64,000 nucleotides of DNA, taken from NCBI GenBank assembly GCA_004322045.1, contig SCRN01000040.1:1-64000 (forward strand), written 5' to 3'. Positions 24,489-31,451 of the stretch are shown here, piece after piece. The notes under the pieces were generated by a model. The model was not told where the DNA came from and made no database searches. It worked only from the letters and a program-made list of their open reading frames with translations. How positions within the stretch are numbered: position 1 is the stretch's first letter; every line of letters begins with the position of its first letter. The position numbers and the translations under genes were made by a program. Source of the DNA: Paraburkholderia sp. (GTDB lineage Bacteria; Pseudomonadota; Gammaproteobacteria; Burkholderiales; Burkholderiaceae).

Positions 24489-24564
24489 GTGGCTGTAGCT
24501 CAGTTGGTAGAGTCCAGGATTGTGATTCCTGTCGTCGTGGGTTCGAGTCCCATCAGCCACCCCA
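24489..24564 (+). tRNA. tRNA-His (anticodon GTG)
   Basis: A cloverleaf with acceptor GTGGCTG/CAGCCAC, anticodon loop TTGTGAT and encoded CCA. A G immediately upstream (24488) can supply the G-1 typical of tRNA-His. It is the likely integration target of the prophage: the integrase gene lies 80 nt downstream and converges on it. Confidence 0.95.
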
Positions 24565-24644: not shown

Positions 24645-25766
24645 TCAGCGGGTGGCGCGCACCTTGCGCTGCCGGCGCCGGTCGTAGACCGTTCGTACCA
24701 TCCGCTCGTCCGAATGCCCGGTTGCGTCAATCAGACGTTCATCTCCCTCGTCGCTTCGATCAGTAACAGCCGTCGGACGCATGTCTGCGAGCGTGAACCG
24801 CTCGAAGGCGATTTCGCGTTTCTTCGCTTCTTCCTCGCAATAGGTCATCAAACGGGACCAGTTCGTATTCCAGCCGCTCCGCGTATAGGGTTGCCCGGAC
24901 GTGTTGCCGAAAATATAGAGACTCGTCGTGCGTTGGATTGATAGCGCCTCGTCGATCACGCTGCGGAGCTCCGGCGACCATTCGACGAGCTTCTCGCGCT
25001 GCATGTGGCCGCCCTTGCGTTTCCCGACGGGCACCCTTACGCCGGCATCGCCGATCGCTTGCCGGCGCAGCTCCCTCATTTCAGTCGGCCGACTGACGGT
25101 CAAATAGGCCGCTTTTGCACACAGCGCCGCAATCACGTAGGCCGATGTCGACTCCTTGCCGTCGGTGCTTCGCCGCGATCTTGCGATCTCAATCGCTAGG
25201 TCGAGCTCATGCAGCTGCACGACCTTTTGGCGCGGGCGCGTCGGGTTGTATTTAATGCCGCGGCATGGGTTCACCTCGAGCTCGCCGCGACGACGACCGT
25301 ACTCGAGCACGGCCGAGAGAAGGGCGATCTCCTTGTTGGCCTTCGCCGGTGCGCCCTGGCTCGCGCGTTTGTCCAGATACCCATAGACGTGCTTCGGCTT
25401 GATCGCTGTCGGTGCAAGCTTCCCGAACACTTTGATGAGCGGCTTCGATTCGCGCTCGTTCTCGTCGAGCGTGATTTGGGCCTTGCGCATTTCGCTGTCG
25501 ACGGGCATTTCATCCTGCCACTTGAAGTAGCGCTCAAAGAGGGCTGCGACTGTGCCCGGCTCTATGGCATCGCCGTTCAAAGCCTCGGCGCGCTCGATCG
25601 CCTGCTTCCTGATCTCGGCGATGGCCTCCTTGTTCTGTGCCGGGGCTGAAAGCCGGAACGCCCATTTCCCGTTCGGTAGCTTATAGGCGAAACTGACCTT
25701 GTGCTTGCCGTAGCGGGGGTATAGCCGAAACGGTAGGCCGTCCGGCGATTTGCGTCGTCCAATCAT
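24645..25766 (-). CDS. Tyrosine-type phage integrase
   Basis: This 373-residue site-specific recombinase has an N-terminal arm-binding region, a SAM-like core-binding domain (about 90-170) and a C-terminal catalytic domain. Visible catalytic elements are Arg in TVSRPTEMREL, Arg in LADMRPTA (the usual HxLR is DMR here), His in ATGHSDERMV and the nucleophile Tyr in RTVYDRR. It is the leftmost prophage gene beside tRNA-His. Confidence 0.95.
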   Translation of the reverse strand: MIGRRKSPDGLPFRLYPRYGKHKVSFAYKLPNGKWAFRLSAPAQNKEAIAEIRKQAIERAEALNGDAIEPGTVAALFERYFKWQDEMPVDSEMRKAQITLDENERESKPLIKVFGKLAPTAIKPKHVYGYLDKRASQGAPAKANKEIALLSAVLEYGRRRGELEVNPCRGIKYNPTRPRQKVVQLHELDLAIEIARSRRSTDGKESTSAYVIAALCAKAAYLTVSRPTEMRELRRQAIGDAGVRVPVGKRKGGHMQREKLVEWSPELRSVIDEALSIQRTTSLYIFGNTSGQPYTRSGWNTNWSRLMTYCEEEAKKREIAFERFTLADMRPTAVTDRSDEGDERLIDATGHSDERMVRTVYDRRRQRKVRATR

Positions 25767-27954: not shown

Positions 27955-28868
27955 GCTCGCTTCCCACCCGCTGCAGCGCGGTCGATGCGCTCGATTTCGG
28001 CGAGGATCAGCGCGCCAGCTTTGATGAGTGCACGACGGGGGCTTGTTGGCTTCCACCACTTCTCGGACCACGGCCAGATGTCAGGCGAACGTGCATAAAA
28101 CGCCGCGCCGCTGTTGATTGTGCGGCTTGTGTAGTCGGCTACAGCGAGGGCATAAGCAGCGCCAGCTTGAGCGAGTTGACCGTCTATGTATCCGTCATCG
28201 CGTGTCGGTGCGAACCCTTCGAGTTCGACCTGGCGGCGGCGCTCTGCCAGCACATCCCGCACCGCCTCGCTCATCGTTGGGGCAGTGGCGAGTGCGGCGC
28301 GGGCGGGTGCCTCATCGCTCCATTTCGGGAGCGGTTGCCAGCCGATGATTTCGTCACCGTCATTGCAAACCTTCTCGTAGACGTACGAGTACTCTCCGCT
28401 CATGTCTATGCCCTGCACGAACCACCCTGTTCGGCCTTTTGCTTCCTCATCTTCGTTGTCATCGATATATGCGTTCGCGTAATAGGCGGCGAACACGAAT
28501 ATTTTGCTCGGATCGTGCGCGCGACGGCATGCGACGTTGAACTCTTTGCTGTCGCCCCGTTTAACGGGCGGCTCGCCGGTTTGCCAATCCGCCTGCTCGT
28601 CCACCACCTCCCGCCTATCAGCAGGTCCCGAAAGTGCTGCACGAAAGGCGTTGCGTAGAACATTCACCGCTCCGTGAATGTTTTCTTCATGCTTGGTCTG
28701 AATGCCGGCGATTTGGAGAACAAGTCCGCGCAGCGTCGCGTCGTCGGGCATCCCCCCCTCAGCAGGCGCAGCGCTGGCGGCAAGCAGCTTGCGAATAATC
28801 GCAGCGTCGCTCTCTGCGAGCTGGCGCCCCATTTCTTCGGCCTCCGCCCGTTCCTCTTTAGTTAGCAT
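27951..28868 (-). CDS. Phage hypothetical protein
   Basis: This 305-residue protein has a charged N-terminal helix (MLTKEERAEAEEMGRQLAES), a middle part like phage DUF551-type modules (GWFVQGIDMSGEYSYVYEK), and a C-terminal module (VRDVLAERRRQVELEGF ... WPWSEKWWKPTSPRRALIKA) that recurs in many phage early proteins. Its ATG lies inside the end of the reverse transcriptase gene, with GGAGGAG as its ribosome site. Confidence 0.65.
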   Translation of the reverse strand: MLTKEERAEAEEMGRQLAESDAAIIRKLLAASAAPAEGGMPDDATLRGLVLQIAGIQTKHEENIHGAVNVLRNAFRAALSGPADRREVVDEQADWQTGEPPVKRGDSKEFNVACRRAHDPSKIFVFAAYYANAYIDDNEDEEAKGRTGWFVQGIDMSGEYSYVYEKVCNDGDEIIGWQPLPKWSDEAPARAALATAPTMSEAVRDVLAERRRQVELEGFAPTRDDGYIDGQLAQAGAAYALAVADYTSRTINSGAAFYARSPDIWPWSEKWWKPTSPRRALIKAGALILAEIERIDRAAAGGKRA

Positions 28869-30205
28869 TTATGGCTCCTCCGATAGGTTTGGGTGAATTG
28901 TTTGTTGACGGTGTACCCGCGGTCTCGCAAGACGTTCGCGAGGTTTGCTCTGTCGTAATGGCTTGCCGACGCTTGGCGCAGCAGCCCGAAGTAGGAGTTC
29001 GCGACAGGCATCAATTCGCCGGCCGGTGTCACCGATACGCGCCGCAAGCCTTCGGAAAATGTCCTCCGGCGCGTGTAGCGGCGCCACGGTTTGATGACCT
29101 GGCCAACGAAATCGACGCCCCGCTCGATCGGCTGAAGGATCGTCTTGCGCGGATTTATCTGGACGCCGAGCCGCTTGGGCAAGAAGCCGGTCACGTCGGC
29201 GAGCATTTCGTTCAGCCGCACCGCCGATTCATGCAGGAAAAGGAAGTCGTCCACATATCGGATGTAATGGCGCGCACCGAGCACATGCTTCGCGCGCTGG
29301 TCCAAAACATCGAGGTAGACGTTCGCAAAGAACTGACTTGACAGGTTTCCGATTGGGAGCCCCATATAGGGTTCCTGCTCGAGCAGACGCTTGTGTCGAG
29401 GAACGAGTTGCATCATTGCCGGATCACCGCGGTATTCGAAGTCGGTGCGCGGATCGTGCATCAGCACGAGTTCGGTCAGCTCGCGCCAGAACGGTTCGGA
29501 GATCTTCGAGAGCAACAATTCGCGCAGGATGCGCTTGTCGATGCTTACGAAGAAGTTCGCTAGATCGCACTTCAGGTAATACGCCGGCCGCGTCCAGTTC
29601 TGCGTAATCGAGCGAATCTTTGCCTCGAGGCGCGCGGCCGCATATAGCGTTCCGCGCCCCTTGATGCAAGCGCACGAATCGGCGATGAATGAGCGTTCGA
29701 AGCACGTCCCGATCCGGTTGTAGATCAGGTGATGCACGATACGATCGCGAAACGCAGCCGCCCATACTTCGCGTGGCTTCGGTCGCGTGATGACGAAGCA
29801 CTTCGAGCGGCCCGGCGTATAGCTGCCGTCGACCAGCTCGTCGTAGAGTCGGCGCAAGTTGCCTTCGAGCCGCATCTCGAATGCAAGCGCCGCATTGCTG
29901 TTTCGCTTCGTCCGCCGGCAGTCGAGGTAAGCCTCGACTAGCTCGGCGAACGAGAATGGCCCTCGATCTGCGGACGGCTCGGGCACGGAACCGGTTGTTC
30001 TGTTGGTTGTTGTTCTGGTTGCCGTTGTTGAAGTTCTGATACCAAGCCCAGCCGGAAATATCGTGCTATCTACGTCGCCCGACCGATTGCTCAGCCGAGA
30101 AACTGCGCTGGACCTATCCGCACTCCGGCGGTCGGTTTCCTCATTGCGCATGGCGGTGGCCTTGTGAGCCAGCGGCACGACCAGATTGAAAGATCGCTCA
30201 GCCAT
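28862..30205 (-). CDS. DGR-type reverse transcriptase
   Basis: This is an RNA-directed DNA polymerase of the diversity-generating retroelement class. The core starts at SFAELVEAYLDCRRTKR. It has the DGR-typical PFRD-like block (AAAFRDRIVHHLIYNRI), the YLKCDLANFFVSIDK catalytic block, GLPIGNLSSQFFANVYLD (the DGR form of motif 4) and the YVDD active site at 29246-29257. The family copies the template RNA with random errors at adenines. Start: ATG 30205 overlaps the avd stop and has GGAGGT upstream, which makes 447 residues with TR inside the frame. GTG 29986, just after the adenine-rich part of TR, would give 374 residues and contain the whole conserved core. Confidence 0.93.
   Translation of the reverse strand: MAERSFNLVVPLAHKATAMRNEETDRRSADRSSAVSRLSNRSGDVDSTIFPAGLGIRTSTTATRTTTNRTTGSVPEPSADRGPFSFAELVEAYLDCRRTKRNSNAALAFEMRLEGNLRRLYDELVDGSYTPGRSKCFVITRPKPREVWAAAFRDRIVHHLIYNRIGTCFERSFIADSCACIKGRGTLYAAARLEAKIRSITQNWTRPAYYLKCDLANFFVSIDKRILRELLLSKISEPFWRELTELVLMHDPRTDFEYRGDPAMMQLVPRHKRLLEQEPYMGLPIGNLSSQFFANVYLDVLDQRAKHVLGARHYIRYVDDFLFLHESAVRLNEMLADVTGFLPKRLGVQINPRKTILQPIERGVDFVGQVIKPWRRYTRRRTFSEGLRRVSVTPAGELMPVANSYFGLLRQASASHYDRANLANVLRDRGYTVNKQFTQTYRRSHKC
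29966..30056 (-). repeat. DGR template repeat (TR), 91 nt
   Basis: In the sense direction (leftward) TR contains a run of AAC codons bounded by constant ends TCCGGCTGGGCTTGG and CGTGCCCGAGCCGTCCGCAG. It has 27 adenines. It aligns without gaps to VR1 and VR2, and every mismatch is at a TR adenine. It lies between avd and the conserved part of the reverse transcriptase, the usual DGR order. Confidence 0.96.
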
Positions 30206-30575
30206 GGGAGCCTTGACCTCCATGGAGCGGGCGATTAGCTGCGGACTTCTTCCACCCGGTGGCCTGCTTCCCGATGCTGGTCGTTTGCTCGACGGCGTTT
30301 GCGTAGACGTCGCGCGAAATCATGCGCTTGTCCATGCCGAGACGAAGAATCAGCTCGATCACCTGCACGCGCTCGAGCAGCTCGTCCAGGTGAGGCGACT
30401 TATCGGCGGCGACGTTGGCGCGGAACACGAGAATCGTGATCTCGACGGACTCGTCCATCATGCGCTTACCCATGTTGCCCTTGGTATCGCGCGGCATGTT
30501 TTTGACGGCGCCCATCACCACATCGAACAGCTTGTAAGCCGCCTTGTAGATCGGGAGTTGGGTGTGAATGGCCAC
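30198..30575 (-). CDS. avd: Avd-like accessory variability determinant
   Basis: This 125-residue basic, all-helical protein (LPIYKAAYKLFDVVMGAVKN, then MMDESVEITILVFRANVA, then LLERVQVIELILRLG) fits the four-helix bundle of DGR accessory proteins. In the Bordetella phage system Avd binds the reverse transcriptase and template RNA and is essential for mutagenic retrohoming. It starts at GTG 30575, 15 nt after target gene 1. Assignment rests on fold pattern and position. Confidence 0.88.
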   Translation of the reverse strand: MAIHTQLPIYKAAYKLFDVVMGAVKNMPRDTKGNMGKRMMDESVEITILVFRANVAADKSPHLDELLERVQVIELILRLGMDKRMISRDVYANAVEQTTSIGKQATGWKKSAANRPLHGGQGSHG

Positions 30576-30590
30576 GGTGGATTTAAATGA

Positions 30591-31055
30591 TTAAATTACC
30601 GAAGGAATAAATCTGCGGACGGCTCGGGCACGGAACCGGTCGCTCTGCCGGTAGTTGCCCTGGTAGCCGTCGTAGAAGTACTGACACCAAGCCCAGCCGG
30701 AGTTCTCCTCATACGCTTCGCCGGACCAATACCAAGCGGCCTCGAACTCGCCTTTTAGGTTGGCGAACAGGAGCGATTGCTCGCGCCGCGTCGGAAGATC
30801 ACCTCCGCGCTCAGCGGCCCATTCCTTTGCGTCCGACCAGGTGATCTCCTCGACATCTGCCGGAAGCAAAATCACGTAGTGACTGAGCGTGCCGTCGTCG
30901 TTGAAGATCGGGCCCGCCACGCGCTCGCCGGCCGCAAGCGGAATCGTCACCGCATCGATGTGGTACTCCGTTGCCTTGGGCTGATTTTTGAATTGCTCGA
31001 TCAAGGTGGCGATGCGTGATTGCTCGGCCTCGATATGTTCAAGCGTGATCGTCAT
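30591..31055 (-). CDS. DGR target protein 1 (C-type-lectin/DUF1566-like)
   Basis: This 154-residue protein has a helical N-terminus (residues 1-30) and a C-terminal domain of the DUF1566/C-type lectin kind: TWSDAKEWAAERGGDLPTRREQ, then WYWSGEAYEENSGWAW and the closing RFRARAVRR. The last third is VR1, in which 11 residues are variable and displayed on the lectin scaffold. No signal peptide or transmembrane segment is visible. ATG 31055 follows GAGGA. The ligand is unknown. Confidence 0.9.
   Translation of the reverse strand: MTITLEHIEAEQSRIATLIEQFKNQPKATEYHIDAVTIPLAAGERVAGPIFNDDGTLSHYVILLPADVEEITWSDAKEWAAERGGDLPTRREQSLLFANLKGEFEAAWYWSGEAYEENSGWAWCQYFYDGYQGNYRQSDRFRARAVRRFIPSVI
30611..30701 (-). 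repeat. DGR variable repeat VR1, 91 nt
   Basis: VR1 occupies the 3' end of target gene 1. Numbering TR 1-91 in the sense direction, it differs at 17, 22, 28, 31, 37, 43, 44, 49, 53, 54, 59 and 61: twelve changes, all from A (seven or more to G, the rest to T). Resulting variable residues are C, Y, Y, D, Y, G, N, Y, R, S, D. There are no indels, and the constant 3' segment is identical to TR. Confidence 0.96.
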
Positions 31056-31085
31056 TGCAATCCTCGATTGGAAATGGATGAATGG

Positions 31086-31451
31086 TTAAATCGACAATCT
31101 GCGGACGGCTCGGGCACGGAACCGGCCGAGCTGTCGGTCGTAGTCCTGGCTGCCGTAGAGGAAGTCCTGAAACCAAGCCCAGCCGGAATAGCCGGGATCG
31201 GTATCGGGCGTGTTCGACCAGTACGCAGCCGCTTTGAACTGCTCGCGATGCTGCTCATAGGCGATGATGAGTTCTGCGCGCGTTAGTAAGTCGCCGCCGA
31301 TGCTCTTCGCCCAATCCATCTGCTCTTGCCACGATGCGCCGTCGTTGTCTCCGGGGAGCATGATCGTATGTGTGACTTCGCCGTTGGCGTTCACGAATCC
31401 GCCGAGGTAGATCTCGCCGTCAGCGAGCGGCGGCAATTGAATCTGCTGCAT
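31086..31451 (-). CDS. DGR target protein 2 (C-type-lectin/DUF1566-like)
   Basis: This 121-residue paralogue of target 1 starts MQQIQLPPLADGEIYLGGF with AGGAG upstream. It lacks the N-terminal helix of target 1. The shared domain includes SWQEQMDWAKSIGGDLLTRAE, AAAYWSNTPD and the closing RFRARAVRR, with VR2 as its C-terminal third. No secretion signal is visible. It lies 30 nt before target 1 in the same operon. Confidence 0.9.
   Translation of the reverse strand: MQQIQLPPLADGEIYLGGFVNANGEVTHTIMLPGDNDGASWQEQMDWAKSIGGDLLTRAELIIAYEQHREQFKAAAYWSNTPDTDPGYSGWAWFQDFLYGSQDYDRQLGRFRARAVRRLSI
31097..31187 (-). repeat. DGR variable repeat VR2, 91 nt
   Basis: VR2 ends target gene 2. Relative to TR it differs at 17, 22, 28, 29, 31, 38, 43, 46, 49, 53, 58, 59, 61 and 62: fourteen changes, all at A (to G, T or C). 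Variable residues are F, D, L, Y, S, D, Y, D, R, L, G. The set differs from VR1, so the two were mutagenised independently. Confidence 0.96.

Follow-up and report, generated by a model that had tools for sequence, protein, structure and literature searches.

An RT-15 RNA that appears to hold both ends of the template repeat in a prophage diversity-generating retroelement of Paraburkholderia

The stretch of DNA analysed here, hereafter the window, comprises 64,000 nucleotides (nt) of contig SCRN01000040.1 from Paraburkholderia sp. and carries a diversity-generating retroelement (DGR) that is complete-looking in its gene content and, as a DGR, ordinary. The subject of this report is the structured RNA RT-15 within this element and its relation to the template repeat (TR). 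All elements of the DGR are on the minus strand in the 5'-to-3' order target 2, target 1, avd, TR and reverse transcriptase (RT) (Table 1). The TR and the two variable repeats (VR1 and VR2) are 91 nt each and align without gaps. VR1 differs from the TR at 12 positions and VR2 at 14, and 26 of 26 mismatches fall on template adenines (T on the plus strand; the TR is read on the minus strand). Only 27 of the 91 TR positions are adenines, and the chance of this outcome would be about 2e-14 if the mismatches were randomly placed. The initial annotation of this DNA had described these gapless repeats, the adenine-only mismatches and the 27 template adenines, and had called the locus a DGR; the coordinates and counts hold as it gave them, and the DGR assignment is borne out by the mismatches, by an RT related to that of Bordetella phage BPP-1 (PDB 8ub7) and by bAvd and PHROG matches of Avd. 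It had also proposed a genome-wide search with the TR end, and a 29-nt pattern from the end shared by TR and VRs, allowing up to 3 mismatches, occurred three times in the 6.0-Mb assembly, each time at the DGR, so that no further VR was found with it. DGRs with several targets are already known, according to an excerpt of PMC6642488, and the TR is intergenic in most DGRs, as a part of Roux 2021 states (PMC8144416).

The PDB sequence nearest to the RT is 8ub7, the DGR RT of BPP-1 (E 6e-33; the next match has 4e-9), and the RT groups with other DGR RTs in a tree that leaves out retron and group II RTs. The best NCBIfam retron model reached 43.1 bits, under its cut-off of 235. The conserved RT domain runs from about 29965 downward, and further in-frame starts for the open reading frame (ORF) are ATG 30205, ATG 30223 and GTG 29986, the last within the TR. 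Avd scored 44 bits with Pfam bAvd (cut-off 40) and 49.4 bits with the NCBIfam equivalog DivGenRetAVD, under its cut-off of 80, and a search of PDB sequences found no relatives of it. The structure model of target 1, built from 29 sequences including its own, has a mean predicted local distance difference test score of 92.8; its nearest PDB structure is the Lcl C-terminal domain (8q4e), and it also resembles C-type lectins. Target 2 is assigned to the lectin type by PHROG and Pfam matches only, the Pfam match lying under the cut-off. The VR occupies the C-terminus of a C-type-lectin-fold target, in the case of target 1 according to the model.

Table 1. Position of the DGR components, the RT-15 RNA and associated features in the window.
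Feature	Position	Strand	Basis or remark
Prophage integrase, adjoins tRNA-His	24645..25766	-	Pfam matches just under cut-offs
DGR reverse transcriptase ORF, 429 amino acids (aa) from the conserved AUG inside RT-15	28862..30151	-	PHROG 1423, PDB 8ub7
Clamp complement at TR 3' end (CAGAUCGAGGG)	29960..29970	-	10 pairs and one A·C mismatch with 30182-30192
Template repeat (TR)	29966..30056	-	alignment; in another frame, open as well and within the RT ORF
RT-15 structured RNA (Rfam RF03018), 183 nt	30054..30236	-	168.5 bits, gathering threshold 82
RT-15 helix 3, 3' strand, 3 nt before TR	30060..30066	-	
RT-15 helix 3, 5' strand, immediately after clamp strand	30175..30181	-	
Clamp strand of RT-15 (CUUUCAAUCUG)	30182..30192	-	pairing analysis
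avd, accessory variability determinant, GTG start	30198..30575	-	Pfam bAvd, PHROG 3206
A+T-only 6-bp stem with 4-nt loop TCAT after VR1; candidate target hairpin, weak	30581..30596	-	
Target gene 1, 154 aa, C-type-lectin fold and N-terminal helix	30591..31055	-	structure model
Variable repeat VR1	30611..30701	-	alignment with TR
Target gene 2, 121 aa from ATG with AGGAG upstream	31086..31451	-	Pfam, PHROG
Variable repeat VR2	31097..31187	-	alignment with TR

Right as it was about the DGR, the initial annotation had passed over the RNA element at 30054-30236 and the absence of an in-frame start between the TR and the RT domain. RT-15 spans the gap between avd and the TR, overlapping the last 39 nt of avd and ending at the TR 5' border. 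It scored above the gathering threshold in the window and in 8 of the 8 relatives examined first. With a covariance model made from 8 members, RT-15 was detected in 65 of 100 loci (one more match has E 0.06) and in 79 of 81 sources, the window among them; the remaining two sources are contigs that begin inside the RT. For the family-wide analysis, loci were drawn from the best 80 of 565 and the best 80 of 543 RT relatives, from phage matches and from genome matches to RT-15 itself, and 143 were used (L146, which is cut, was left out). A TR lies within 120 nt of the RT-15 end in 140 of the 143; no TR/VR pair was found in L060, L167 and L168. In 129 of the 140, the RT-15 end falls between -5 and +1 nt relative to the TR start. 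In the deep clade members L070 and L073, the gap between the RT-15 end and the TR start as detected is about 59-72 nt, and the TR of L073 was detected only in pieces. Locus L175 has a second, weak RT-15-like match (741-883, 22.4 bits) upstream of the main one. The 55 model pairs of RT-15 were paired in 94.7% of cells in 99 distinct sequences, as against 83.4% after shuffling (0 of 500 shuffles as high), and 46 of the 55 show changes on both sides, in an alignment that follows the model and contains the sequences from which the model was made.

Two loci, L062 and L067, separate the RNA from the RT. Both have a methyltransferase gene between TR and RT, the RT carrying a separate ATG some 1 kb away, while RT-15 and TR are still adjacent; RT-15 is therefore, on this arrangement, an RNA that belongs with the template and not with the RT. 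The two methyltransferase genes (L062 2861-3816 and L067 3421-4485) are different ones, named by eye from motifs, and that of L067 looks frameshifted. In a tree of 92 RTs, the 50 carriers of RT-15 included (16 chosen and 34 taken at random from 112 clusters; L040 and the retron and group II RTs are absent) stand on one side of a single branch (100/99; recovered in all 200 bootstrap trees). A quick tree of 157 RTs with 114 carriers changes its RT-15 label twice with L040 and once without it. By these trees, the carriers are one RT clade with one loss. At L040 4069-4489, inspection by eye shows a lectin-like target ORF and an adenine-rich repeat that runs directly into the RT, both avd and RT-15 being absent from the junction, and this looks like the product of a deletion in which VR and TR recombined and avd and RT-15 were lost. 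RT-15 is said to derive from the work of Weinberg in 2017, and a large DGR survey is reportedly that of Wu in 2018. We found no paper linking RT-15 to DGR templates in the literature searched, although a prior mention elsewhere is possible.

Between the 5' hairpin of RT-15 and its helix 3 lies a strand complementary to the TR 3' border, and we refer to the pairing of the two as the clamp. Its register was fixed by the flanking letters and was readable in 139 of 140 loci (L070 was dropped), which gave 111 cluster representatives. At positions p4-p10, 617 of 777 cells were paired, compared with 510.8 ± 8.2 when the TR borders were permuted, and 0 of 5000 permutations were as high; sliding the register by 1-3 positions left 152-449 cells paired. 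Position p7 is paired in 105 of the 111 representatives by five different combinations (C-G 39, G-C 29, T-A 29, A-T 4 and T-G 4). By parsimony, its two sides change at least 22 and at least 20 times on the RT tree. Shared ancestry or the conserved CAGA/UCUG letters could in principle produce such a signal, as the letters of p1-p5 barely vary and p7 is the only position significant on the tree. When p7 was simulated as two independent sides, however, 48.3 ± 16.3 representatives were paired with a maximum of 88, and 0 of 500 simulations reached 105, so that p7 has stayed paired through all these changes. In addition, a separate sub-clade forms the clamp with other letters, L069 with 10 of 10 pairs and L073 with 8 pairs in a row. 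We consider ancestry or conserved letters a very improbable source of the signal.

The 3' flanks of the VRs serve as a natural control, and they pair less than the TR flanks at p5 and p7-p10; at p7 and p9 the paired fractions are 0.56 and 0.19 for VR flanks (n=211) against 0.95 and 0.69 for TR flanks (n=111). The minimum-energy fold of the window RNA contains the clamp, stacked directly on helix 3, and at least 6 clamp pairs are present in 66 of 111 such folds, versus 96 of 333 with swapped flanks. Because helix 3 ends just before the TR and the TR 3' border is paired with the strand that precedes helix 3, the two ends of the template would be adjacent and the template looped. As far as the letters tell, RT-15 appears to hold both TR ends.

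The same RNA seems to encode the start of the RT. In the window, no in-frame ATG, GTG or TTG occurs between the TR and the RT domain. Among 138 loci with the RT next to the TR, 59 are without an in-frame ATG in or after the TR and 79 have one. In all 59 of the former (50 clusters), the frame continues without a stop through the TR as far as an in-frame ATG upstream of it, and likewise in 35 of 35 loci (29 clusters) that lack ATG, GTG and TTG in or after the TR; of the 79, 47 are open to an upstream ATG, 18 are open without one and 14 are closed. Counted from the conserved RT-15 AUG, the RT domain begins after a multiple of 3 nt in each of the 51 loci among the 59 that allow the measurement, with 10 different lengths, and in 36 of 58 such loci among the 79. 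In the last 95 nt of RT-15, stops in the RT frame occur in 0 of the 59 loci, while the other two frames have them in 59 and 52. A tree-based independent-pairs test of the frame had too few pairs. Because of these counts across the family, RT translation in the window likely starts in RT-15.

A conserved AUG in RT-15, to which the RT frame is often open, would also be expected of a leader that merely regulates RT translation, the priming spacer then lying, as in BPP-1, downstream of the TR, here within the RT coding sequence. Conservation of the RT codons for residues 20-49 is somewhat above average (0.16 versus 0.09), as this explanation would have it. The first RT codons, on the other hand, have no stand-out conservation (0.041 for residues 5-19; later blocks reach up to 0.219), and a spacer hidden in the RT codons is thus unsupported by conservation at the RT 5' end. 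Moreover, RT-15 pairs with the TR border and accompanies the TR, not the RT, in L062 and L067. A role as leader only is in our judgement unlikely. The clamp could alternatively be a translational switch that hides or exposes the RT start and takes no part in reverse transcription; since 79 of 138 loci have an in-frame ATG in or after the TR, pairing there could affect initiation. L062 and L067, however, keep 9 and 8 clamp pairs even though a methyltransferase gene follows the TR and the RT starts at its own distant ATG, which makes a mere switch improbable.

The family VRs evidently turn over, to judge from comparisons of near relatives. Where TRs are equal and VRs differ, 347 of 364 VR differences fall on template adenines (27 comparisons); 16 further comparisons of near relatives showed no VR differences and are probably the same genome entered twice. 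L109 and L110 are identical over 200 bases before the target 1 VR and have 10 VR differences, all at template adenines, and between phages Haboob and phPA-G there are 13 and 12 VR differences, again at adenines only. The initial annotation had inferred that the element is or was recently active; for the window strain itself, the TR/VR differences are the sole indication of activity. RT-15 was found in only 2 of 11 genomes of the genus examined, that of the window and one other whose RT is 72% identical, which might suggest a decayed relic. This seems unlikely, as the RT, avd and both targets are open and VR1 and VR2 differ from the TR at template adenines only.

We therefore favour, with a probability of roughly 0.8, the reading that the prophage DGR diversifies two small C-type-lectin-fold proteins and that RT-15 serves as a spacer on the 5' side, clamping the two ends of the template and positioning reverse transcription. 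By sequence, the RNA module consists of RT-15 and then the TR, and RT-15 folds as a domain closed by helix 3, with the strand before helix 3 pairing with the TR 3' border. RT and Avd would bind the RT-15 leader as those of BPP-1 bind the 3' spacer, and the clamp would set the TR 3' end at the active site. Complementary DNA (cDNA) synthesis would begin near the junction of clamp and helix 3 and proceed 5' through the TR with errors at adenines, until helix 3 halts it at the TR 5' border, and the cDNA would then replace VR1 or VR2. The maintained frame suggests that the RT is translated from the same RNA, with its start inside RT-15 or, in other members, in or after the TR; because of this, one molecule would serve as messenger or as folded template, hardly as both. 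By analogy with BPP-1, we infer that RT-15 is the spacer of its clade, with the primer site at the clamp/helix-3 junction and the stop at helix 3. It is also possible, although we advance this only tentatively, that the spacer moved from 3' to 5' of the template, so that the clamp strand both marks the template end and supplies the priming hydroxyl at the helix-3 junction, and the cDNA is joined 5' of the TR, in the manner of a retron, on an RNA that encodes the RT.

Several results weigh against this reading. Taken singly, p5, p6, p8, p9 and p10 were not significant in the tree simulation, and among the independent-pairs tests of the clamp that were listed, p6 not being one of them, supported pairs were too scarce to reach significance (at p7 the pairs against average 0.0, and one test of p8 had more pairs against than with). 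At p6 the VR flanks pair more than the TR flanks (0.86 versus 0.63), and the one A·C mismatch of the window clamp sits at this position. Fewer than 6 clamp pairs occur in 45 of the 111 minimum-energy folds, and the fold energies are ordinary (z 0.09 and -0.12). L040 lies inside the carrier clade yet lacks RT-15, and the priming and stop sites are placed by analogy. As to the RT start, GTG 29986 within the TR is a possible alternative, and RT ORFs are annotated from before the TR in DGRs without RT-15, namely those of Vibrio phage VP58.5, ACA1 and phiARM81mr (L186, L188 and L189).

What appears new is the link between RT-15 and a DGR template, and no assigned role of RT-15 was found in the literature searched. 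A role is thus proposed for an RNA family named only for its proximity to reverse transcriptases, and a DGR spacer could occupy either side of the template. The reading predicts that one helix determines the start of mutagenic copying, for which the natural clamp variants are a ready series.

The DGR belongs to a myophage-type prophage. A 29-bp exact repeat of the tRNA-His end (window 24536-24564 and contig 75959-75987) bounds a prophage of about 51 kb that extends past the window, and terminase, portal, capsid, tail sheath and tape measure genes lie on the plus strand at 49-62 kb. The DGR itself occupies 29-31 kb of the minus strand, so that its targets do not neighbour these tail genes. They (30591-31451) adjoin a ParB-like gene and run opposite in strand to the structural genes, and no virion-attachment domain was seen in either target. 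BPP-1-type DGRs have a G+C-rich hairpin with a GRNA loop after the VR, as stated in part of PMC3240598. The stem after VR1 is listed in Table 1, and inspection revealed no hairpin stem after VR2; in the family, best stems of at least 7 bp occur in 39 of 218 VR flanks versus 6 of 218 flanks shuffled by single letters. The nearest phage record is Burkholderia phage Magia (MT701587), whose DGR is 79.7% identical in DNA over 93% of a 2.74-kb query and has the same target/avd/RT order, RT-15 and two VRs. The portion of the Magia announcement available to us names the DGR and short target ORFs and leaves the RNA element unmentioned.

The attachment site of BPP-1 is likewise annotated as His-tRNA, and the BPP-1 RNA structure is reportedly the subject of a paper by Handa in 2025. 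The window DGR and that of BPP-1 share RT homology, Avd, adenine mutagenesis and the order target-avd-TR-RT, and in these respects the analogy that the initial annotation drew holds; in RNA architecture it fails, the window DGR being the mirror image of that of BPP-1. In BPP-1 the TR directly follows avd and a structured 144-nt spacer (RF03022, Phage_DGR) lies 3' of the TR, whereas the window has a 183-nt RNA 5' of the TR, an RT domain directly after it and no 3' spacer. An Rfam scan gave no RF03022 match in the window, and RT-15 and the BPP-1 spacer showed no homology under a covariance model (2.6 bits over the spacer, E 1.9), being alike in position and in a UGGUC motif only. UGGUC stands just after the clamp strand in RT-15 and at the matching place in the BPP-1 spacer, and 5 of the 11 comparison phages have GGTC in their spacer. 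Pairing is possible in BPP-1 between TR 123-129 and spacer 48-54, immediately ahead of A56, the priming adenine; the same scan gave other short helices, including one of 8 bp with avd. The RT-15 clamp strand corresponds in place to this spacer segment, approaching the template from its opposite side. In the BPP-1 system, according to excerpts of PMC12875486, the 3' spacer recruits RT-Avd and an internal spacer adenine primes cDNA at the TR 3' junction.

RT-15 was absent from all 11 comparison DGR phages. Ten of them have a gene annotated upstream of the TR, its end lying no more than 64 nt from the TR, and in these the interval between the TR end as detected and the start (or match) of the RT is about 100-190 nt; no Rfam match was found 3' of the TR in 9 of the 11, BPP-1 and BalMu-1 being the exceptions. 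The DGR of Bacillus phage BalMu-1 contains RT-14 (RF02921; L193 1998-2141), like RT-15 an RT-associated RNA in a DGR. RT-14 starts 3' of the detected TR end, as the BPP-1 spacer does and unlike RT-15, and because of this position it may also be a DGR spacer. As for the Rfam family RT-15 itself, the window RNA matches it above the gathering threshold, and the present analysis ties it to the TR, with whose 3' border it covaries. In a retron, the msr-msd RNA has a structured part at its 5' side followed by the 3' template. The window element shares this order of 5' structure and 3' template and differs from a retron in its DGR RT, its Avd and its VR targets.

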